The position numbers were made by a program, and so were the translations under genes. Positions 1-46,981 of a stretch of 61,437 nt of DNA are shown piece by piece (positions within the stretch are counted from its first letter, which is position 1; the number at the start of each line of letters is the position of its first letter). The stretch spans positions 1 through 61,437 of the forward strand of contig JAMCTE010000034.1 in the NCBI GenBank assembly GCA_023381015.1, in the 5' to 3' direction. Under the pieces are notes generated by a model. It ran no database searches and was not told the DNA's origin. It saw nothing but the letters and a program-made list of their open reading frames with translations. The DNA is from Patescibacteria group bacterium (GTDB lineage Bacteria; Patescibacteriota; Microgenomatia; UBA1406; GWC2-37-13).

Positions 1-125
1 CATCTGTTTAATAAATTTTTATATATTTCTAAAGGTTCTTGTGGAGAGGTTAGATCGATGATTCATCTTGGTTTTGAATTAAAATATATCAACGAAGAAA
101 GTTACAAAAATTTATTAAACAGATG
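1..125. repeat. 20-bp perfect inverted repeat at the window start
   Basis: Bases 1-20 are the exact reverse complement of 106-125, separated by 85 bases. Both arms lie in the reading frame of the four-helix bundle gene. A perfect 20-bp match is unlikely by chance. It may be a true stem in the DNA or a fold-back created at a contig end. Confidence 0.7.
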
Positions 126-171
126 CTTGGAAATTTCAAAAATGTTATCTGGATTAATTAAAACTTTATAA
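1..171 (+). CDS. Four-helix bundle protein (23S rRNA IVP family), C-terminal part
   Basis: The reading frame is open from the window edge to a TAA at 169-171. It carries the family signature KGSCGEVRSM near residues 11-20 and ends in CLEISKMLSGLIKTL, the usual C-terminus of the small four-helix bundle proteins related to the 23S rRNA intervening-sequence protein. The N-terminal half lies outside the window. Family members are small, widely scattered and of unknown function, and often move between genomes. The gene converges on the TrpR-like gene, 20 nt away. The first 20 bases repeat in inverse orientation inside the gene, so the extreme 5' end could be an assembly fold-back. Confidence 0.75.
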   Translation, partial: HLFNKFLYISKGSCGEVRSMIHLGFELKYINEESYKNLLNRCLEISKMLSGLIKTL

Positions 172-191
172 ACTTTCTAACTTTAGGAACT

Positions 192-485
192 TTATGAACT
201 GGTTAATACTTTATCGTAACCGCCACAGCCTCGAAACAGCCAATGAGCAGTACGAGTCACAGTCGTTGTTGACACTTTTAACTCCCTAGCAATTTTTTTA
301 TATGACCAACCTTTTTTAAGAAGTCTAGCCATTTCCAATCGATTAGCAAATTCTTCAAACTCTTTGATAGTCAAAAGGTCTCTCAAGAAATTTGCCACCT
401 CTTGTTCTGTTTTTAATTTCAAAAATGCTTTTGCTAAAAACTTTTCCTTGTTGTTTTTCGGCCTGTATGACTGAAAGTTGTTCAT
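192..485 (-). CDS. TrpR/YerC-YecD family transcriptional regulator
   Basis: This 97-residue helical protein has the TrpR-like DNA-binding pattern. FLRDLLTIKEFEEFANRLEM (about residues 34-53) is followed by a helix-turn-helix, KKGWSYKKIARELKVSTTTV (about 57-76). Length and motifs fit the YerC/YecD branch of the Trp repressor superfamily, whose ligand is mostly unknown. It is transcribed divergently from the HAL operon across a 303-bp gap with A/T-rich inverted repeats, so it is a natural candidate regulator of that operon. That link is inference. The C-terminus is cysteine- and glycine-containing (FRGCGGYDK), which is common in this branch. Confidence 0.85.
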   Translation of the reverse strand: MNNFQSYRPKNNKEKFLAKAFLKLKTEQEVANFLRDLLTIKEFEEFANRLEMARLLKKGWSYKKIARELKVSTTTVTRTAHWLFRGCGGYDKVLTSS

Positions 486-525
486 ACTTTATTATATTAA
501 TATATTGCAATGAAATAAAACCCTC

Positions 526-554
526 TTGACATTGCATCGGTCATATATTATCAT
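526..554 (+). promoter_or_regulatory. Candidate promoter towards the HAL operon
   Basis: TTGACA at 526-531 is followed 17 bases later by TATCAT at 549-554. An alternative -10, TATTAT (546-551), has shorter spacing. The -10 directly abuts and overlaps the 553-570 inverted repeat, as expected for a repressed promoter. No experimental start site is known. Confidence 0.45.
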
Positions 555-570
555 ATTAACACGTTAATAT
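553..570. promoter_or_regulatory. Inverted repeat, possible operator
   Basis: ATATTAAC-ac-GTTAATAT gives two perfect 8-bp arms with a 2-bp centre, the size and symmetry of a dimeric helix-turn-helix operator. It lies between the TrpR-like regulator and the HAL operon and overlaps a possible -10 box. A second inverted repeat, TACTTTA-6 nt-TAAAGTA, lies at 579-598. Assignment to the neighbouring regulator is inference. Confidence 0.45.
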
Positions 571-646
571 AAATAGCGTACTTTATTTAATTAAAGTAAA
601 CAAAAACTTATGAAAAAAATAAAATCACAAGTTTCATTGCATCATA

Positions 647-762
647 CCCTGCCGCAGGCGGGGTCGCCTTTTATGTAATTGATAATTAAAAATATTTGAT
701 TACTCTACCCCGCCTATGCCGGCGGGTTTTTCTTTGCCCGCCGAAGTTTAAACGAAGGCGGG
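647..762. repeat. Three GC-rich hairpins between promoter and HAL gene
   Basis: Three hairpins stand in an A/T-rich leader. CCCTGCC/GGCGGGG is at 647-663. CCCGCC/GGCGGG at 709-726 is followed by TTTTTCTTT. CCCGCC/GGCGGG at 737-762 is followed by TTTTATT. The second and third look like rho-independent terminators on the plus strand. The third matches the repeat nested in the glmS ribozyme at 28718-28743 (CCCGCC, 14-nt loop ending ACGAA, GGCGGG), so it belongs to an interspersed family. They could end or attenuate transcription before HAL. Confidence 0.6.
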
Positions 763-788
763 TTTTATTACAAATTTTCAAAAAATTT

Positions 789-2354
789 ATGAAACAAATA
801 AGTCAGGTAACGATCACGGGTGGCGGTTTAACGGTTGAGCAAATTAAAGCTGTCGCTCGGGATTATATTACAGTTGAAATCGGCAAAGAAGCTGCCGACA
901 AATGTAAGCGTGGTTATGACATTTTGCTGAAAAAAATCAATCAAAAAGAAAAAATCTACGGAGTCACCACCGGATTCGGGGAATTTTCTCAGGTATTTAT
1001 CGATCCGGAAAAAGCCGCCCAACTACAGTTGAATCTCATAAGATCACACAGCACCGGCGTCGGCGACCCAGCTAAAGAAGATGCTGTCCGTGCCACCATG
1101 CTCTGTCGAGCTAATTACTTGGCGTCGGGAATGTCGGGAGGCCGGCCGATTCTTCTGCAAACGCTAGTCGAGATGTTAAACAAAAAAATCACTCCCTTGG
1201 TCCTCGAACAAGGATCGGTTGGATCAAGCGGCGACCTGGCGCCTCTTGCCATGATGACTTTACCGATGATTGGCGAAGGCGAAGCTTTTTTTCAAGGAAA
1301 AAGAATGCCGGGGAAAAAAGCCATGAAAAAAGCCGGAATTCCTCTCGTCAAACTTCAGGCCAAAGAAGGACTCGCCCTTATCAACGGCGATACTTTTATG
1401 GCTGGACTCGGCAGTCTTGAACTCTACGACGCGCTTCAATTAGCAAAAGTTTCGGAAATCTCCTGTGCGATGACGATGGAGGCGATCGAAGTCGTTCTCC
1501 AGGCCATGGACGAAAAAATTGCCAAAGCCAGGAAATTTTCCGGGCAGGTAATTGCTGCTAGAAATCTGAGGAAGCTAATGAACAAAAGCGAAATTTTGGC
1601 AGGACCTCCGCAACGAGTTCAAGACGCTTATTCGATCCGCTGCGCTCCTGTGATTTTAGGAGCCAGCCGCGAAGCGCTTCTCTGGATCAAACGTCAATTC
1701 GAGACCGAAATAAATGCTGCTCAAGATAATCCTCTGGTTTTTCTGGAAACAAAAGAAGTGTTGTCGGGCGGAAATTTTCACGGCCAACCGATCGCCATGC
1801 CTTTGGAGACTATGGCCCAGGCGATCCAGGAATACGCCAATAGTTCGGAAATAAGGCAAGAGCGGATGAACAATCCTTATTACAGCAAAATCTTGCCGGC
1901 ATTTTTGATCGAATCAGGCGGTCTAAACTCTGGATTTATGATGCCTCAATATGCGTCAGCCGCACTCGTTAACGAGAATAAAATTCTCTGTTACCCGGGA
2001 ATCGTCGACTCTATCCCCGTCTCCGCCGGACAAGAGGATGACTGTTCGATGGGCACCAACGCCGCCTTAAAAATCCAACGAATCATCCGCAACACCAGAT
2101 ACGTAATAGCGATTGAATTGATGCTGGGTTGCCAAGCTCTTGATTTCAAAAAAGGCAAGAAACCAGGAAAAGGGATCAAAACCGCTTATGACCTGATAAG
2201 ACAAGAAATTCCCTATATTAAACAAGACGTTGTCCTGTACAAAAACGTGGAAAAGATTTTCCAGTTGATTAAAAGTGAAAGATTGGTTCAGGAGGTCGAA
2301 GAAAAGATCGGAAGACTCGAAGAACCAAAAGATCTGAAAAGATCCTATGAATAA
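789..2354 (+). CDS. Histidine ammonia-lyase-like MIO enzyme
   Basis: The 521-residue length and sequence fit aromatic amino acid ammonia-lyases, which eliminate ammonia through a self-made MIO group. The catalytic Tyr loop YGVTTGFG is at residues 57-64 and the MIO segment GSVGSSGDLAPLA starts at 142. YSIRC is at 281-285 and QED at 415-417. The SH pair at 86-87 and QED are HAL-like rather than PAL-like, so histidine to urocanate is the best guess. The MIO triad is Ser-Ser-Gly instead of the usual Ala-Ser-Gly. An upstream start at 696 would translate the hairpin repeats, so ATG 789 is preferred. No other histidine-degradation gene is in the window. It is the first gene of a four-gene operon and overlaps the next gene by 8 nt. 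Confidence 0.85.
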   Translation: MKQISQVTITGGGLTVEQIKAVARDYITVEIGKEAADKCKRGYDILLKKINQKEKIYGVTTGFGEFSQVFIDPEKAAQLQLNLIRSHSTGVGDPAKEDAVRATMLCRANYLASGMSGGRPILLQTLVEMLNKKITPLVLEQGSVGSSGDLAPLAMMTLPMIGEGEAFFQGKRMPGKKAMKKAGIPLVKLQAKEGLALINGDTFMAGLGSLELYDALQLAKVSEISCAMTMEAIEVVLQAMDEKIAKARKFSGQVIAARNLRKLMNKSEILAGPPQRVQDAYSIRCAPVILGASREALLWIKRQFETEINAAQDNPLVFLETKEVLSGGNFHGQPIAMPLETMAQAIQEYANSSEIRQERMNNPYYSKILPAFLIESGGLNSGFMMPQYASAALVNENKILCYPGIVDSIPVSAGQEDDCSMGTNAALKIQRIIRNTRYVIAIELMLGCQALDFKKGKKPGKGIKTAYDLIRQEIPYIKQDVVLYKNVEKIFQLIKSERLVQEVEEKIGRLEEPKDLKRSYE

Positions 2355-3258
2355 TTTGACCCTTGGCGAATCCAACACTCCTCTCTTCCGCTTTCCATTT
2401 CAGATATAATATCTGAAATGGAAAGCGGAAATCTGGGCCAAAGCCGAATATCAAAACCCGACTGGATCTTTTAAAGACCGAGGAAGCATCGCAGAAATTA
2501 CCGAAGCGTTCAACCAAGGTAAAAAAGGAGTCGTTTGCGCCTCGACCGGTAATATGGCCGCCAGCTTGTCGGCTTATGCAGCAAAAGCCGGGTTGGAATG
2601 TTTTGTTGTCGTTCCCAAAAACACGCCAATAAATAAATTAAAACAAGCAACTGCCTGTGGAGCAAAACTGATTGAACTTGCTGGTAACTACGATCAATGT
2701 GTCAAAGAGGCCAAAAAACTATCGGAAGAAAACAATCTTCTTCTTTGTGGTGACTATGAACTGAGAAGACTTGGCCAAAGAAATTTAGGAAGAGAACTGG
2801 CCGAATCAGGAATAAATTTTGACGCTTTTATTGTTCCTGTTGGAAACGGTACTTTAGGTTGTGCCATTATCGAAGGATTCGTTGAAAAAAACAAATGGCC
2901 AAAATTCGTTGGCATTCAAGGAACAGGTTCTGATCCGATTGCAAAAGCGTGGAAAAACAACTCTCAATCACTTCAATTAATCGAAACGCCAAAAACTATC
3001 GCTTCGGCCATGAAAGTCGGCAGTCCTCTGGACGGAAGTCTTACCTTAAGTTGGGTTCGGGAAACCAATGGCATGATGTTATCTGTTGACGATGAAAAAA
3101 TTACAAAAGCTCAACAACTTCTTGCTCAGAAAGAAGGAATCTTCGTTGAAACATCAGCTGCGGCAACCCTTGCCGGACTTATAAAAATAAACAACAAGAT
3201 TAGATCATTAAAAATTGTCCTAATTCTCACTGGAAGTGGGTTAAAGGAAAATCTTTAA
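2347..3258 (+). pseudogene. Threonine synthase-like PLP enzyme, interrupted by one in-frame TAA
   Basis: One continuous frame starts at ATG 2347, inside the HAL stop region, with LGESNTPLFRF. It meets TAA at 2407-2409 and continues in the same frame as WAKAEYQNPTGSFKDRGS, the PLP-lysine motif. Then come ASTGNMAAS and PVGNGTLG (phosphate and PLP binding) and a C-terminal LTGSGLKENL. The length between NTPL and the lysine motif matches the family, so only a single nonsense codon separates the parts. Downstream re-initiation, for instance at ATG 2554, would lose the catalytic lysine. The alternatives are a pseudogene, a sequence error or readthrough. Family relatives use O-phosphohomoserine or other beta/gamma-substituted amino acids; the exact substrate is unknown. 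The next gene starts after one nucleotide. Confidence 0.75.
2386..2430. repeat. 45-bp perfect palindrome inside the threonine synthase-like gene
   Basis: Two 22-bp arms (2386-2407 and 2409-2430) are exact reverse complements around a single central A at 2408. The stop codon TAA (2407-2409) sits exactly at the centre. There is no T-run after it, so it is not a normal terminator. In RNA it would form a very stable hairpin. A perfect palindrome of this size in a coding region is unusual. It may be natural or an assembly fold-back. Confidence 0.85.
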
Positions 3259-3259
3259 A

Positions 3260-4525
3260 ATGAAAATCGAATCTTTACCTAAATCTAATGATACTGTTTT
3301 GGGTTCATTGCCCAAACTCTTTGTTGTTACAGCAAGAGAGCCAGGTTTAGGTCTTAAATCCTCTACGCTCACTTATAAAGAAGCCGATGCCAGATTTTCA
3401 AATTTATTGGATTCATCCGAATATCGACTAGGAATGCAAGCAGTCGACAGAGTTTTTCAGGCTTTTGATTTTCCTGATATTTATAATGGAAAATTACCTT
3501 ACAGACTAATATTCCCTGCAGATGCCTTCAAGACATACCTAGAAATTTATGTTCCACTTTTTGATCCAGGCTCCGAACCTGTTCCTGCAAAAGACGTCTT
3601 TGTTGTGGAAACACCTGATGGGCAAGGATATCTATCAAGAAGCAGTTTTTGGAGTGCAATAATCGACGGCGTTTCCGCCGTAAGGAATAACCAATCTTTA
3701 ATCCTCGATGGAAAAGTAGTAAATGTCGGCGGCGTCCAACCTTGCTTCAGGAACGAAGTAAAAGATGTACGACCCGGATGGAGGGAACTAGGCTTTTTGC
3801 AGGCCGATATAGAATTAGCCGGTCTTACAGACGAAAAAAGAAATAAGAATTGGTTTGACAAAACCGCGATAACACAACTTGTCAAAGCTTTAGAATCCAT
3901 AAATATTCCACGATCAACCATAAATATTAGAGTCAATAATTTTTTCCAAATATTATATGAAGTATTGGGAGATAAGATTGGATTTTTGGAAAAGGAAATT
4001 TTTGGCTTAGATATCATAAATGAAATGGCACCATCAAAACTTATTGGAAATAACGACGAATTTGTTAATCTTCAAAAATCCGCTCTCGCTCAAATTGATA
4101 TTTGGTTATCTGAAGGAAAATTGTCAGAAAATGCAGAAGCTTTTTTAATTGCTCTTATAAATACAGGCAATTATGACGAACAATTGCTTAAAAACTATTA
4201 TCCAAAAGCATTCGAATCTTTGCAAAATTTAAATAAAATTGTTGAGGATATTCAAAGAGAATCACCTGATCTCAAAATTTCCATTGATCCTTTATCCGTC
4301 AGGGCCGGAACACCCGGTTACGACGGAACAACCATGCAGGCCGACGTCATTTCAAATGATAAAGTTTTTCCTGAACTTGCCGGAGGAGGAGCGTATCAAA
4401 AAGCTGCACAAAAAAGCTGGGAAACTCAATTTGATGAAACTCCGCCCGAAAATTTCTATATGGTCGGTTTTGCCCTTGGTTTGCCTAGACTTAATACTGT
4501 ATTAAATTCTATAAACACAGAATGA
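3260..4525 (+). CDS. HisRS-like class II aminoacyl-tRNA synthetase paralog (catalytic core only)
   Basis: The 421 residues show class II HisRS features. A motif-2-like stretch, CFRNE followed by RELGFLQADIELAG, lies near residues 163-189. LAGGGAY near 372-378 corresponds to the HisRS AGGG region, and GFALGLPRL near 404-412 is motif 3. The protein ends right after motif 3, so the anticodon-binding domain is absent. Such cores occur as HisZ or as enzymes that activate amino acids for non-ribosomal chemistry. No hisG or other his gene is nearby, so HisZ is unlikely. Placed beside an HAL-like enzyme, it may bind or activate histidine or a product of it; this is inference. It overlaps the M20 gene by 4 nt (ATGA). 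Confidence 0.65.
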   Translation: MKIESLPKSNDTVLGSLPKLFVVTAREPGLGLKSSTLTYKEADARFSNLLDSSEYRLGMQAVDRVFQAFDFPDIYNGKLPYRLIFPADAFKTYLEIYVPLFDPGSEPVPAKDVFVVETPDGQGYLSRSSFWSAIIDGVSAVRNNQSLILDGKVVNVGGVQPCFRNEVKDVRPGWRELGFLQADIELAGLTDEKRNKNWFDKTAITQLVKALESINIPRSTINIRVNNFFQILYEVLGDKIGFLEKEIFGLDIINEMAPSKLIGNNDEFVNLQKSALAQIDIWLSEGKLSENAEAFLIALINTGNYDEQLLKNYYPKAFESLQNLNKIVEDIQRESPDLKISIDPLSVRAGTPGYDGTTMQADVISNDKVFPELAGGGAYQKAAQKSWETQFDETPPENFYMVGFALGLPRLNTVLNSINTE

Positions 4526-5595
4526 AGAAAGAATTGATAAATATTACAAAAAAATTAGTTGAATTCCAAACTATTTCATCCAATAAGTCTGAATTACAAA
4601 AATGTTTAGAATATATACAAAATTATTTTATATCAACCAAACTATTTTCAAAAATATTTTATTCTAGCGGCTTTCCTTCCCTTTTCATCTCCAATTCGTC
4701 ATCAAAAAAAATGGATCTAATTTTAAATGGTCATATAGACGTAGTTGATGGAGCCAAAATTCAGTTTAAGCCTTTCATCAAAAACAACCGACTATATGGA
4801 AGAGGAACAATTGACATGAAATCTTCAATAGCAATAATGATGATTATTTTGAAAAATGTTGCACAAAATTCAACAAAAAAAATTGGAGCAATGTTTGTTT
4901 GTGATGAAGAAATATTCGGCGAGAACGGAACTAAATATCTTTTAGATAAAGGGTATAGGTCTAAATTTTCTATAATAACCGAAGAGTCAAATTTTGACAT
5001 TGTTACTAAACAAAAGGGTCAAATAACAATCAAATTTGAAGCAAGGGGGAAATCCGGCCACGGGTCTCAACCATGGACAGGTAAAAATGCTATTGAGAAT
5101 CTAATAAGTTCTTATAAACAATTAAGAAGATCATTTCCGAAAGATCAAAAAAGTAGTTGGGAAAAACCAACAATTAATCTTGGAATAATAAAAGGTGGAA
5201 CAGCAGCAAATGTAATACCAGATGAAGCAGAATTATTTTTAGATATTCGTTATCCGTCAATATCAAAATTGGAAACGGTGCTAAAAAAAATGGATAAAAT
5301 TATAGAAAACCATTCTGTCAGCTACTCTATCTTGTCAAAAACTTTTCCAATGTATTCTGGTGACGTTGACAAATATGTCAAAAAATTAATCACAATCACT
5401 AAAAAAATCAAAAATAAGAAATCGAAATTAAAATGGACCAACTACTGTAGCGATGCCCGATATTTTTCTGAAAAGAATATGCCCGTGATAGAATTTGGAC
5501 CAACTGGTGGTGACTATCACTCTGATAATGAATATGTGGAAATCGATAGCTTAATAAAATATTACGGAATTCTTAAAGAATTTATACTTACTTAA
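4522..5595 (+). CDS. M20 family metallopeptidase (ArgE/DapE/carnosinase-like)
   Basis: The 357 residues contain the M20 zinc-site motifs in order: NGHIDVVDG, GRGTIDMKSS, CDEEIFGENG and EESNFDIVTKQKG. A dimerisation-like segment with GKSGHGSQPWTG follows, and the C-terminal histidine motif GGDYHSDNEY. The family hydrolyses N-acyl amino acids or dipeptides with two metal ions. It is the last gene of the HAL operon and starts inside the stop of the HisRS-like gene, so it is probably co-translated. If the HisRS-like protein makes an amide or peptide, this enzyme could cleave or trim it; that is a hypothesis. The substrate cannot be read from sequence. Confidence 0.85.
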   Translation: MKKELINITKKLVEFQTISSNKSELQKCLEYIQNYFISTKLFSKIFYSSGFPSLFISNSSSKKMDLILNGHIDVVDGAKIQFKPFIKNNRLYGRGTIDMKSSIAIMMIILKNVAQNSTKKIGAMFVCDEEIFGENGTKYLLDKGYRSKFSIITEESNFDIVTKQKGQITIKFEARGKSGHGSQPWTGKNAIENLISSYKQLRRSFPKDQKSSWEKPTINLGIIKGGTAANVIPDEAELFLDIRYPSISKLETVLKKMDKIIENHSVSYSILSKTFPMYSGDVDKYVKKLITITKKIKNKKSKLKWTNYCSDARYFSEKNMPVIEFGPTGGDYHSDNEYVEIDSLIKYYGILKEFILT

Positions 5596-5609
5596 ATAGT
5601 ATAGCCTCG

Positions 5610-5628
5610 TTCCACCCGTAGGGTGGAA
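5610..5628. repeat. TTCCACCC-gta-GGGTGGAA hairpin
   Basis: A perfect 8-bp stem with a 3-nt loop lies just after the M20 gene. The same core, CACCCGTAGGGTG, occurs inside two unrelated genes at 20263-20280 and 39882-39899, so it looks like a short interspersed palindrome. It may also act as a weak transcript end, but no T-run follows. The rest of 5596-5781 shows no gene. Confidence 0.55.
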
Positions 5629-5781
5629 AGCGACAGACTTCGAGAAAAATTTGTTGCTGTAATCTTCTGGAGATACTATTTTGTGTAATCTAGTCCATAG
5701 ACAAAAACAGTCATAAAGTCTATAAAATCCTTAAAGCCGTGATCAGAAACAATAGGAAACCCAATAGTTAACAAATGTTAG

Positions 5782-6039
5782 TTGGAAATACCGATTCATT
5801 CCGCAAACGTTTTATTGGACATATTTCAGATAATGCCAAATCATGTTCATGGAATATCAATCATTAAACGAAAACATTCCGTAGGGGTTTCATTTATGAA
5901 ACCCGAAACGATATTTAAAATTTCAAAATCAAATCATCATATGGGTTTGATGAATCAAACCCTTACATTAGAATTGGCCGTCCGTTATTTTAAATCAAAA
6001 TGTTCATACCAAATCCATAAAATAGATTTTAAGAGATGA
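5782..6039 (+). pseudogene. Remnant of a Y1/REP-associated tyrosine transposase (IS200-like, RAYT)
   Basis: The fragment contains IMPNHVHGI, the HUH metal-binding motif of Y1 transposases, and later VRYFKSKCSYQIHKIDFK, the matching helical segment of the REP-associated branch. The N-terminal part before the HUH motif is absent or scrambled, the middle is degraded, and the catalytic tyrosine region is cut short by a stop. RAYT proteins mobilise or maintain small palindromic repeats, and several such repeats are scattered over this window. The remnant suggests past activity. It is unlikely to be functional. Confidence 0.75.
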
Positions 6040-6069
6040 AGAAAATCCAAAGAAAGGAGGTGATTGATC

Positions 6070-6300
6070 ATGACTGATAAAAATCAAATGCAAAAAGAAA
6101 AAATTTCCGGACAGATGTTAAAATTAAAAGGCAAGACGATTTTTTTCGACGTCTATAAGGCAAAAAACGACAGCAATTATTTGAAAATTACCGAATCCAG
6201 GTTCGATAAGGAAACAAAACAGAGTAAAAGATATTCCATAATTCTATTCAACGATGATATTGAAGAATTTAAAAAGATGTTGAATAGTATTTCTTTATAG
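6070..6300 (+). CDS. Pur/DUF3276 family nucleic-acid-binding protein
   Basis: This 76-residue protein contains TIFFDVYKAKNDSNYLKITES followed by a basic strand and FNDDIEEFKKML. That is the single PUR-like beta-beta-alpha repeat of the DUF3276/PurA-related family, which binds single-stranded DNA or RNA. ATG 6070 is chosen over TTG 6064 because an almost complete anti-Shine-Dalgarno match, AAAGGAGGTGA at 6053-6063, lies at normal distance from it. This is the strongest ribosome-binding site in the window. The tRNA gene on the other strand follows. The cellular role of the family is not known. Confidence 0.7.
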   Translation: MTDKNQMQKEKISGQMLKLKGKTIFFDVYKAKNDSNYLKITESRFDKETKQSKRYSIILFNDDIEEFKKMLNSISL

Positions 6301-6333
6301 ACTTTAGACTCTATGACTTTTACTCTTTTTCTG

Positions 6334-6405
6334 TGTCAACAGCAGGATTCGAACCTGCGACCTAGCGCTTATGAAACGCTTGCTCTGCCGCTGAGCTATG
6401 TTGAC
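6334..6405 (-). tRNA. tRNA with anticodon CAU (Met or Ile2)
   Basis: On the minus strand the sequence folds into a full cloverleaf. The acceptor stem is GTCAACA/TGTTGAC, the D-arm GCTC/GAGC, the anticodon stem AGCGT/GCGCT with loop TTCATAA, and the T-arm CGCAGGTTCGAATCCTGC. Discriminator base is A and CCA is not encoded. G1-C72 pairing argues against an initiator tRNA. Elongator Met and lysidine-modified Ile2 cannot be separated here. Confidence 0.9.
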
Positions 6406-6425
6406 TAACTTTGCCTCAGATATTA

Positions 6426-6436
6426 TATAATATAAC
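6426..6436 (+). promoter_or_regulatory. -10 box(es) of the polysaccharide block
   Basis: TATAAT at 6426-6431 is followed by an overlapping TATAAC at 6431-6436. They lie 13 and 8 nt before ATG 6445, leaving little or no leader and no Shine-Dalgarno sequence. Confidence 0.5.
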
Positions 6437-6444
6437 CTATTGTT

Positions 6445-7335
6445 ATGGCAAAAATAGACCTTTCGATTATCATCGTGTCTTTCAACACGAGAAAGATCAC
6501 CGAGGACTGCCTGAAATCCGTCAACCGCTCTCTCTGGAAGTCAAAAATCAGATACGAAATCGTCGTCGTCGACAACGACTCCCACGACGGCTCCCAGGAA
6601 CTTTTGTTGTCGATGGAAAAAGACAGAAAAAACCACCTCATCTACTACCAAACCGGCGGCAATTTGGGTTTCGGATCGGGAAACAACTTCGGCGTCAAAC
6701 GTTCACACGGCAAATACCTCCTTCTTTTGAACTCGGATACGATCGTCCTTGACCGGTCGATCGAAAAACTGCTTGATTTTTACGTAAAAAACGAAAAAAG
6801 CGTCCATTTCCTTGGAGCAAAACTCCTTAATAAAGACCTGACTCCCCAGCCGTCGGCCTGCCGATTCTTCACGCTTCCTGTTGTTTTTGCCACCCTGCTT
6901 CTTAAGGGAGACTATTGGGGATTGACGAGATTCTCCCCAAATGAGTTCAAAAAAGTCGACTGGGTTTCCGGCGCCTGCATCCTCACCAAAAGAACTTCTT
7001 ACAACAAATTGGGCGGTTTTGACAAAAACATCTTCATGTACATGGAAGAAGTAGATCTGCTGTATCGGGCCAAAAAAATCGGTTTTGAAACATATTTTTA
7101 TCCCAAAGCCCAGGTGATCCACCTCGGCAGCGCTTCCTCAGGGGGAAAAACCTTTCCCATTCTCCAGGTCTACCGCGGTTTCCTTTTCTTTTACAAAAAA
7201 CACTACTCCAAACTGTCGCTTTTCGGATTAAGAGTGATTTTAAAATTTAAGGCGATAATTGCCTATTTTATTGGTAAAATAAAAGGTAATCAATACCTGG
7301 TCAAAACCTATGAACAAGCTTTTCGGATTTCTTAA
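6445..7335 (+). CDS. Glycosyltransferase family 2 (rhamnosyltransferase-like)
   Basis: The 296 residues start with the GT2 nucleotide-binding strand LSIIIVSFNTRKITEDCL and EIVVVDNDSHDGSQE. LLLLNSDTIVLD follows with the metal-binding DxD-like acidic pair, then WVSGACILTKR and a GGFDKNIFMYMEEVDL segment typical of WbbL-like enzymes. It should transfer a sugar from an activated nucleotide to a glycan acceptor on the inner side of the membrane. It opens a six-gene block of surface-glycan genes. Its end overlaps the ligase-like gene by 26 nt. Confidence 0.85.
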   Translation: MAKIDLSIIIVSFNTRKITEDCLKSVNRSLWKSKIRYEIVVVDNDSHDGSQELLLSMEKDRKNHLIYYQTGGNLGFGSGNNFGVKRSHGKYLLLLNSDTIVLDRSIEKLLDFYVKNEKSVHFLGAKLLNKDLTPQPSACRFFTLPVVFATLLLKGDYWGLTRFSPNEFKKVDWVSGACILTKRTSYNKLGGFDKNIFMYMEEVDLLYRAKKIGFETYFYPKAQVIHLGSASSGGKTFPILQVYRGFLFFYKKHYSKLSLFGLRVILKFKAIIAYFIGKIKGNQYLVKTYEQAFRIS

Positions 7336-45985: not shown

Positions 45986-46981
45986 ATGAAAATCCTGTAT
46001 TCCCAAAAACACCTGTCCCATGTCCCTCATTATGAAATTTTTGATGGTCATCAAGATCATCATGCTGAAGCGCCGTCGCGCGTAGAAAATATTAAAAAAA
46101 GTCTCATTGCCAACGGATTTAAAATCAGTAATCCAATCAAAACAACTCCACTTTATTTAATTAAAGTAGTTCACGACAAAGATTATGTCGATTTTATAAA
46201 AAATTGGTCGGTCTATTCTTATCCTTCGGTTTTCCCATACAACGATTTAAGCAAAAACAGAAGGCTAACCAACCCGCTGGCCAATTTGGGAAAATATTCT
46301 TTTGATTTATATACGCCGATGCACCAAAATGTGTTCGAGGTCGCCCTTGAATCGTCATCTTTGGCTTATGATCTAGCTACCGACGTGGCAAAACAAAGAA
46401 TCAAAGTCGGCTATGCCCTATGCCGCCCCCCCGGCCACCACGCCGAAATCGCCAAAATGGGCGGTTACTGTTATTTCAACAATACCGCAATCGCCGCTCA
46501 ATACCTGTCCGGTTATGGAAAAGTTGCCGTCCTTGACGTCGATTTCCATCACGGCAACGGCACGCAAAACATTTTTTACGGCAGGGGAGACGTTTTGACG
46601 GTTTCGATCCACGCCGACCCCAATTGGAAATTCCCCTTTTATACCGGATTCAAAGAAGAAATCGGCGTCGGAAACGGAAGGAAAAAAAATATCAATTATC
46701 CTATGCCGAAAGGAACTACCGACAACCAGTACCAAAAAACCCTTGAAAAAGCCCTGGTGAAAATAACAGACCATAGACCGGAATATCTTGTTGTCGCCCT
46801 TGGTTTGGATACCCACCGCGACGATTTCTTCTTTGGGTTCAAATTGACAACAAAATATTACACCAAAATGGCAAAAACCATCAATTCGCTGGATTTGCCG
46901 ACGTTGATCGTCCAGGAAGGCGGATATAATACAAAACTCTTGGGAGATAATGTAGTATCTTTTTTAAACGGTTTTATATAA
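45986..46981 (+). CDS. HDAC-like deacetylase (acetylpolyamine amidohydrolase type)
   Basis: The 331 residues carry the arginase-deacetylase zinc-site motifs: CRPPGHHAE (His pair), GYCYFNNTAIAA, LDVDFHHGNGTQ (metal Asp and His), ALGLDTHRDD (metal Asp) and IVQEGGY with the catalytic Tyr. Relatives remove acetyl groups from acetylpolyamines or acetyl-lysine. The gene follows the GNAT-like gene by 1 nt and precedes LysRS, all under one T-box. It may release lysine or polyamine from acetylated forms; that is a hypothesis. Confidence 0.9.
   Translation: MKILYSQKHLSHVPHYEIFDGHQDHHAEAPSRVENIKKSLIANGFKISNPIKTTPLYLIKVVHDKDYVDFIKNWSVYSYPSVFPYNDLSKNRRLTNPLANLGKYSFDLYTPMHQNVFEVALESSSLAYDLATDVAKQRIKVGYALCRPPGHHAEIAKMGGYCYFNNTAIAAQYLSGYGKVAVLDVDFHHGNGTQNIFYGRGDVLTVSIHADPNWKFPFYTGFKEEIGVGNGRKKNINYPMPKGTTDNQYQKTLEKALVKITDHRPEYLVVALGLDTHRDDFFFGFKLTTKYYTKMAKTINSLDLPTLIVQEGGYNTKLLGDNVVSFLNGFI

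Follow-up and report, generated by a model that had tools for sequence, protein, structure and literature searches.

Genes and regulatory features of the HAL locus

The window analyzed here is a 61,437-nt stretch of DNA from a Patescibacteria group bacterium (assembly GCA_023381015.1, contig JAMCTE010000034.1), which constitutes contig C34 of a 1.06-Mb genome, designated G000, that is 84% complete. Near its start lies a four-gene operon encoding a histidine ammonia-lyase (HAL), a pyridoxal 5'-phosphate (PLP) enzyme similar to threonine synthase (ThrC-like), a divergent paralogue of the histidyl-tRNA synthetase (HisRS) core and an M20 family amidohydrolase. The operon is preceded by a regulatory region (486-788) and by a divergently transcribed gene for a yerC/hisR-like regulator (Table 1). 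The regulatory region lies upstream of the stretch described in the original prediction for this DNA, and was overlooked there.

Comparisons were made with 20 genomes of the genus (including G000), 72 of the family, 83 of the order and 374 of the class, and with a phylum sample of 380 genomes; other G numbers refer to genomes of relatives and L numbers to fetched loci. The closest named relative found was Candidatus Roizmanbacteria bacterium GW2011_GWC1_37_12 (LBST01000006.1), here G003. HAL is scarce in the phylum sample, being present in 13 of the 380 genomes.

When the coordinates were checked, the four tightly packed plus-strand frames of the original prediction proved to be real. Of the spacings it gave (8, 1 and 4 nt), the 8-nt overlap between the HAL and ThrC-like genes and the 4-nt overlap between the HisRS-like and M20 genes are correct, but the single nucleotide is a gap rather than an overlap. 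The assignments to the HAL, PLP/ThrC-like and M20 families were borne out by Pfam and TIGRFAM profiles.

Table 1. Positions (in the window) of the genes and regulatory features of the HAL locus.
Feature	Position	Strand	Basis or remark
yerC/hisR-like regulator, TrpR family, divergent from the operon	192-485	-	PF01371 E=2e-18; TIGR02531 yecD_yerC
Sigma-70 promoter, TTGACA-17-TATCAT	526-554	+	11/12 consensus positions
Palindrome ATATTAACACGTTAATAT spanning -10/+1, putative operator for a repressor	553-570	.	conserved in relatives
Palindrome ACTTTATTTAATTAAAGT, fits core of HisR box cacTTTAnnnnnnTAAAgtg	580-597	.	0 expected in shuffles
Leader peptide MKKIKSQVSLHHTLPQAGSPFM, tandem His codons at 640-645	610-678	+	frame scan
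Attenuator hairpin 1:2, ACCCTGCC-GCA-GGCGGGGT (CCCTGCC-GCA-GGCGGGG)	646-664	+	alternative pairing of segments 2 and 3
Terminator 3:4 (CCCGCC-loop-GGCGGG-TTTTT), 5' arm is segment 3 ACCCCGCC	707-731	+	folding
HAL/HutH-like histidine ammonia-lyase, 521 aa	789-2354	+	PF00221, TIGR01225
ThrC-like fold-type-II PLP enzyme	2347-3258	+	PALP PF00291, TIGR00260 thrC; interrupted by TAA in this assembly
Perfect inverted repeat, 21-bp arms and 3-nt TAA loop, 45 bp	2386-2430	.	TTCCGCTTTCCATTTCAGATA-TAA-TATCTGAAATGGAAAGCGGAA
Divergent HisRS-core paralogue, 421 aa, without anticodon-binding domain	3260-4525	+	weak profiles, hhalign
M20 family amidohydrolase (ArgE/DapE-like)	4522-5595	+	PF01546, TIGR01910

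In textbook biochemistry, HAL initiates histidine breakdown. The window protein gives a full-length match to TIGR01225 (562.4 bits; cut-off 539.2), and alignment with the Pseudomonas putida enzyme (1gkm) revealed that none of the latter's substrate-binding or catalytic residues has been changed. These are Tyr53, His83, Asn195, Gln277, Tyr280, Arg283, Phe329 and Glu414 (P. putida numbering). The triad forming the 4-methylideneimidazol-5-one cofactor reads Ser-Ser-Gly instead of the expected Ala-Ser-Gly. Urocanase (PF01175) was not found in G000 or in any of the 19 other genus genomes, which, with G000 being 84% complete, is not proof of absence; among the 72 family genomes it is present in G022 only, and G002 and G003 are likewise without a match. 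Literature searches turned up no description of HAL being controlled by a histidine attenuator, nor of HAL in Patescibacteria.

Predicted histidine-responsive control elements upstream of HAL

The yerC/hisR-like protein scores 58.4 bits against TIGR02531 (cut-off 42.2), and its gene is the divergent neighbour of HAL also in G003, G002, G022, G011 and G014. The spacing of the predicted promoter is alike in G003, G002, G022 and G011. The palindrome covering -10/+1 recurs as ATATTAAYACGTTAATAT in G000, G003, G011, G014 and G022, and among 96 loci it was found at this place of the HAL promoter only; G002 carries it as the variant GTTAACACGTTAATAT. At the site equivalent to the second palindrome, G003 has the exact published Firmicutes HisR-box consensus (CACTTTAATTAATTAAAGTG). 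YerC of B. subtilis is the histidine repressor HisR, which recognizes a 20-bp box with the consensus cacTTTAnnnnnnTAAAgtg, and among ligands, histidine stimulated DNA binding by the R. gnavus HisR protein most effectively (PMC9413887). The HisR-box-like 18-mer occurs once more in identical form (46150-46167), inside a histone-deacetylase-like coding frame of the window; this copy was discarded as probably due to chance.

Downstream of the putative operators, the tandem histidine codons of the leader peptide directly abut segment 1 of the attenuator. Besides segment 1, segment 2 (GGCGGGGT) can base-pair with segment 3 (ACCCCGCC), so that the predicted antiterminator and the terminator, which ends in a U5 run, are mutually exclusive. 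A second hairpin (CCGCCGAAGTTTAAACGAAGGCGG) followed by TTTT is located between the attenuator and HAL (738-761); a similar element occurs after the hisS leader in L085 and before HAL in G010.

Short ATG frames containing two consecutive histidine codons (HH) and followed by a terminator were searched for on both strands of 636 kb. Nine matches were obtained, eight of them just upstream of HAL (G000, G003, G002, G011, G014, G380, G544 and G492) and the ninth upstream of hisS in G000, while the matches to control doublets, made up of other amino acids, were scattered and numbered at most 12 per doublet. Leaders of hisS with HH or HHH were found in at least eight further genus genomes, and the G221 leader carries HHHH. 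In two other Patescibacteria genomes (L079:4438-7206 and L080:4610-7914), a leader with 7-8 histidine codons precedes HAL, tRNA-His and hisS, in this order; its stop codon touches or overlaps the terminator, a geometry contrary to that of the class leaders.

The behaviour of eight class leaders was modelled by constraint folding, with the ribosome footprint masked at the leader stop codon or at the first histidine codon. With the ribosome at the stop codon, the terminator formed in all eight (0.97-1.00). With the ribosome stalled at the first histidine codon, the antiterminator formed for every footprint tested in six of the eight leaders, and in G014 for footprints of up to 8 nt.

As far as can be judged from the DNA, the case for this regulatory anatomy upstream of HAL is strong. 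HAL would be expressed when histidine is low, because attenuation and repression by histidine-bound HisR both give this polarity.

Gene order in relatives and the genes downstream of HAL

A check for a conserved neighbourhood, suggested with the original prediction, recovered the four-gene order in one sister genome (G003) but nowhere else; the core that is kept is the HAL-ThrC pair. Genes of the close ThrC-like subfamily (>55% identity to the G003 protein) are present in seven genomes (G000, G002, G003, G022, G177, G221 and G380), in all of them directly after HAL. The genes that follow vary: the HisRS-like and M20 genes in G000 and G003, canonical hisS in G221, G380 and G177, RidA, a swivel-domain protein and, further on, a true HutU in G022, and, instead of the HisRS-like and M20 proteins, a pair of unusual aminotransferase-like proteins of fold type I (498 and 541 aa) in G002 (L011:2160-5278). 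In G221, G380 and G177 the pair was apparently inserted at the hisS locus, since the order hisS-EamA-rpmE-prfA also exists without HAL in G193 (L092); for the same reason EamA was ruled out as a specific partner.

More distant HALs (38-44% identity) are likewise located beside hisS, in the order HAL - tRNA-His(GTG) - hisS in G544 and G492 and divergently in G535, and in G682 HAL comes directly after an entire his operon (hisG to hisIE, yerC). Apart from G221, G380 and G177, hisS is a neighbour of HAL in four genomes. The tRNA-His genes of G544 and G492, looked at with a T-box and its matching discriminator base in mind, have A73. HAL lacks a ThrC-like partner in G010, G011 and G014, whose HALs are only 43% identical to the window protein. 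Nevertheless, in G011 and G014 HAL is found at the corresponding genomic position, preceded by the same yerC, operator and leader, and in G010, which is cut at the contig end, the remaining part of the leader aligns. Judged by these arrangements, HAL itself is the regulated function, because HALs of only 43% identity sit behind the same control. A different HAL-like subfamily is clustered with AMP-ligase-like, ThiF/E1-like and nitroreductase-like frames, named by reading their sequences, in L082:5213-10299 and L083:2174-7327, and possibly belongs to a natural-product cluster.

Synonymous sites of G000 and G003 are saturated for an estimate of the ratio of non-synonymous to synonymous substitution rates, and identity by codon position was used instead. 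Across the four genes and yerC, identity was 0.84-0.93 at second positions and 0.41-0.52 at third positions. Read in this way, the comparison shows that the four genes and the adjacent yerC have been under purifying selection for most of their divergence, since second positions are far more identical than third ones.

The ThrC-like gene belongs to the family originally named, but its status as a working operon member is affected by an in-frame TAA (2407-2409, codon 21) that the original prediction overlooked. The stop codon lies ahead of the PLP lysine, and no usual start codon follows it until 2554, beyond that lysine. It forms the loop of the inverted repeat (fold z=-8), which, according to codon-by-codon alignment with G003 and G002, substitutes 24 nt of normal N-terminal codons with the length unchanged. 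A replacement of this kind, leaving the length as it was, would point to a templated (template-switch) mutation or to an artefact of the assembly. The gene is intact in G003, G002, G022, G221, G380 and G177.

NSxNPYR is the substrate-phosphate motif of threonine synthase; in the window protein it is replaced by CGDYELR (CGDYxxR). The GDYxxR replacement is common to ThrC-like proteins fused to a LeuA domain, encoded in ilv operons with RidA in the same class. Two such fusions with a 2-isopropylmalate-synthase-type regulatory domain (L039:4815-6689 and L040:4481-6397) are probably allosteric threonine deaminases. Homoserine dehydrogenase (PF00742) is present in G003 and was not found in the six other carriers of the pair (G000, G002, G022, G177, G221 and G380). 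Because of the shared GDYxxR motif, the RidA gene after the ThrC-like gene in G022 and the missing homoserine dehydrogenase, the simplest reading is that the enzyme is probably a Thr/Ser dehydratase releasing ammonia beside HAL, rather than a partner mutase or ligase in biosynthesis.

The assignment of the third protein as a class II HisRS-like core lacking the anticodon-binding domain is weak but real. It has no Pfam match and reaches only E=6e-4 with the HisZ model TIGR00443 (18.9 bits; curated cut-off 271.7), and no hisG is located within the operon, the rest of the genome not having been searched for it. Its G003 homologue matches PF13393 (E=4e-5). Comparison with 20 canonical HisRS by hhalign paired motif 2 (CFRNE...WRELGFLQADIE), the HisA motif (DPLSVRAGTPGYDGT) and motif 3 (GFALGLPRL), hmmsearch support being marginal. 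All three catalytic arginines are kept (R164 in motif 2, R348 in HisA, R410 in motif 3), and the protein ends at motif 3 (403-411). The alpha-amino-binding stretch RPEGT/RYDQT, however, reads RSSFW in the alignment, which suggests that the acidic residue has been lost; the core might then, very tentatively, activate an acid, urocanate for example. AlphaFold prediction with the single homologue gave a pLDDT (predicted local distance difference test) of 40, at which the pocket cannot be judged. Canonical hisS is encoded separately in G000 (C3:3295-4479).

Among the order genomes the HisRS-like protein was found in two of 83 (G000 and G003), the G003 gene carrying a 62-nt N-terminal deletion, and the class sample added only weak matches. 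Two of these were inspected and rejected: G193 as noise, and G299 as a separate HisRS paralogue. The G299 locus (L091:5876-8719) contains two divergent HisRS genes, one of them a paralogue with a reduced C-terminal domain. Searches of viral, plasmid, phage and GTDB-contig sequences revealed no relatives beyond G003, and a search of PDB sequences gave chance matches only. The M20 protein scores 222.6 bits with TIGR01910 (cut-off 217.6), and its closest solved structure is 2rb7.

Proposed role of the operon and comparison with known systems

Control by starvation would be self-defeating for a histidine-degrading enzyme, and fits hisS, histidine biosynthesis and transport; therefore, a role in histidine supply is favoured. 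We propose a histidine-limitation operon built around HAL and the ThrC-like ammonia-lyase, in which HAL would work in the amination direction, the direction being inferred from the starvation control placed on HAL and from the urocanase missing from the genus. This reading falls somewhat short of an even chance. Counted in its support are also the HAL-ThrC pairs directly upstream of housekeeping hisS in G221, G380 and G177, the same leader device on hisS elsewhere in G000, and the candidate T-box of G177. The doubt about plain histidine degradation expressed in the original prediction is thus reinforced by the HisR box, the His-codon attenuator and the lack of a urocanase match in G000 and its genus.

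Under the supply reading, when histidine is plentiful, HisR (YerC) would occupy the operator and the ribosome would pass the histidine codons of the leader, allowing the terminator to form. When charged tRNA-His is short, the ribosome would stall at these codons, the antiterminator would form and HAL would be transcribed. HAL would then aminate urocanate with ammonia to histidine, pulled by HisRS, while the ThrC-like Thr/Ser dehydratase would supply ammonia next to it. In G000 and G003, M20 might free histidine from an N-acyl derivative or a dipeptide, and the HisRS-like core would represent a hisS copy that was co-inherited and has diverged. In G000, with the ThrC-like gene broken by the stop codon, HAL may act alone, as in G010, G011 and G014. 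The full proposal, of a reversed HAL that in Patescibacteria makes histidine from urocanate and ammonia in one step, induced by starvation via HisR and the attenuator, with the co-transcribed dehydratase as local ammonia source, is tentative and open to real doubt.

In several Patescibacteria families, HAL is repeatedly found behind histidine-starvation switches and beside hisS, tRNA-His or an entire his operon, which contradicts a catabolic role. Should HAL indeed aminate urocanate, these reduced-genome symbionts would obtain histidine with a single enzyme from urocanate provided by a neighbour, and the catabolic annotation of HAL in such genomes would be wrong.

Several observations weigh against histidine supply. 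The equilibrium of HAL favours deamination, we know of no physiological role for HAL in reverse, and the residues of the window enzyme are those of ordinary HutH. In G022, the true HutU encoded in the same cluster fits catabolism. The leader stop codons of G544 and G492 abut or overlap the terminator, suggesting a polarity opposite to that of the class leaders, and the match of the G177 leader to the T-box model RF00230 (34.2 bits; E=6.5e-6 with 601 bases searched) is below the gathering score of 93. In G000 itself, the stalled-state antiterminator forms only if the footprint beyond the A site is at most 9 nt, and the leader ATG has no obvious Shine-Dalgarno sequence. The Rfam His leader RF00514 gave no match in window positions 1-7000 or in relatives; it is likewise without a match in Firmicutes, where His attenuators have been described (PMC9413887).

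Some of these points would suit ordinary catabolism, in which HAL and the ThrC-like dehydratase deaminate histidine and Thr/Ser for ammonia and oxoacids under a leader that is tnaC-like or otherwise induced by histidine. The standard HAL residues, the HutU and RidA of the G022 cluster and the G544 and G492 leaders, which would give expression at plentiful histidine, point this way, as does the nearest precedent, a hisR paralogue that clusters with hutH in Oscillibacter and has been read as a specialized utilization regulator (PMC9413887). We nonetheless consider catabolism rather unlikely: the class leaders have classical attenuator geometry, the same device is placed on hisS, where only expression during starvation makes sense, a T-box, as predicted in G177, can read uncharged tRNA only, and no urocanase was found in the genus. 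It is improbable, too, that the operon is simply a decaying module, with the ThrC-like gene a recent template-switch pseudogene, the HisRS-like gene eroding in G003 and only HAL still mattering. The TAA within a perfect inverted repeat, the 62-nt deletion and the solitary HALs of G010, G011 and G014 agree with decay, but the inverted repeat may be an assembly artefact, and third positions about 50% identical against 84-93% at second positions in all four genes indicate selection for most of the divergence.

The product originally suggested, a small histidine- or urocanate-derived amide or non-protein amino acid made or removed by the operon with the HisRS-like core as ATP-dependent ligase, found no direct support, and we rate it as quite improbable. 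The three kept arginines combined with RSSFW in place of RPEGT/RYDQT would make an adenylating role possible, and the HisRS-like and M20 genes, which share 4 nt, are both present in each of the two genomes concerned. However, these two genes are a late, lineage-restricted addition (two of 83 order genomes), absent from the operons of G002, G022, G221, G380 and G177, which all keep HAL-ThrC; the G003 HisRS-like copy is shortened, and the low pLDDT of the two-sequence prediction leaves the pocket beyond judgement. Least probable of all is antimetabolite defence, in which a histidine analogue blocks HisRS, uncharged tRNA-His accumulates, HAL destroys the analogue and the variant HisRS serves as a bypass. 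It would explain a histidine-destroying enzyme behind a sensor of uncharged tRNA as well as the nearby HisRS-like genes, but hisS of G221, G380 and G177 resembles the housekeeping locus (hisS-EamA-rpmE-prfA, as in L092 of G193) and not a spare copy, and there is no toxin or producer context. A protein modification system like EpmA/EpmB (aminomutase and synthetase paralogue) was also considered, and no supporting evidence was found.

Each part of the locus resembles a known system and departs from it. As in the Firmicutes HisR (YerC) regulon, a TrpR-family regulator lies beside its target, with a 20-bp palindrome of the same consensus core, whereas the known targets there are histidine biosynthesis and transport genes and the target here is HAL (PMC9413887). 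The leader shares with hisL-type attenuators consecutive histidine codons, mutually exclusive antiterminator and terminator and a U-run; it differs in that class leaders have only 2-4 histidine codons, do not match RF00514 and control HAL. The HisRS-like protein consists of the HisRS catalytic core alone, like HisZ and other anticodon-less paralogues, but unlike HisZ it has no hisG beside its gene, keeps the motif-2, HisA and motif-3 arginines, and has 421 aa with an N-terminal extension. With ThrC and IlvA, the PLP enzyme shares fold type II and the lysine motif NPTGSFKDRG, and it differs from ThrC in having CGDYxxR instead of NSxNPYR and, in G000, a frame that is not intact. Finally, HAL matches the HutH family (TIGR01225) over its full length and in all substrate-binding and catalytic residues, yet in G000 it has no hutU, hutI or hutG beside it, carries Ser-Ser-Gly in place of Ala-Ser-Gly, and is controlled like a histidine supply gene rather than like hut.

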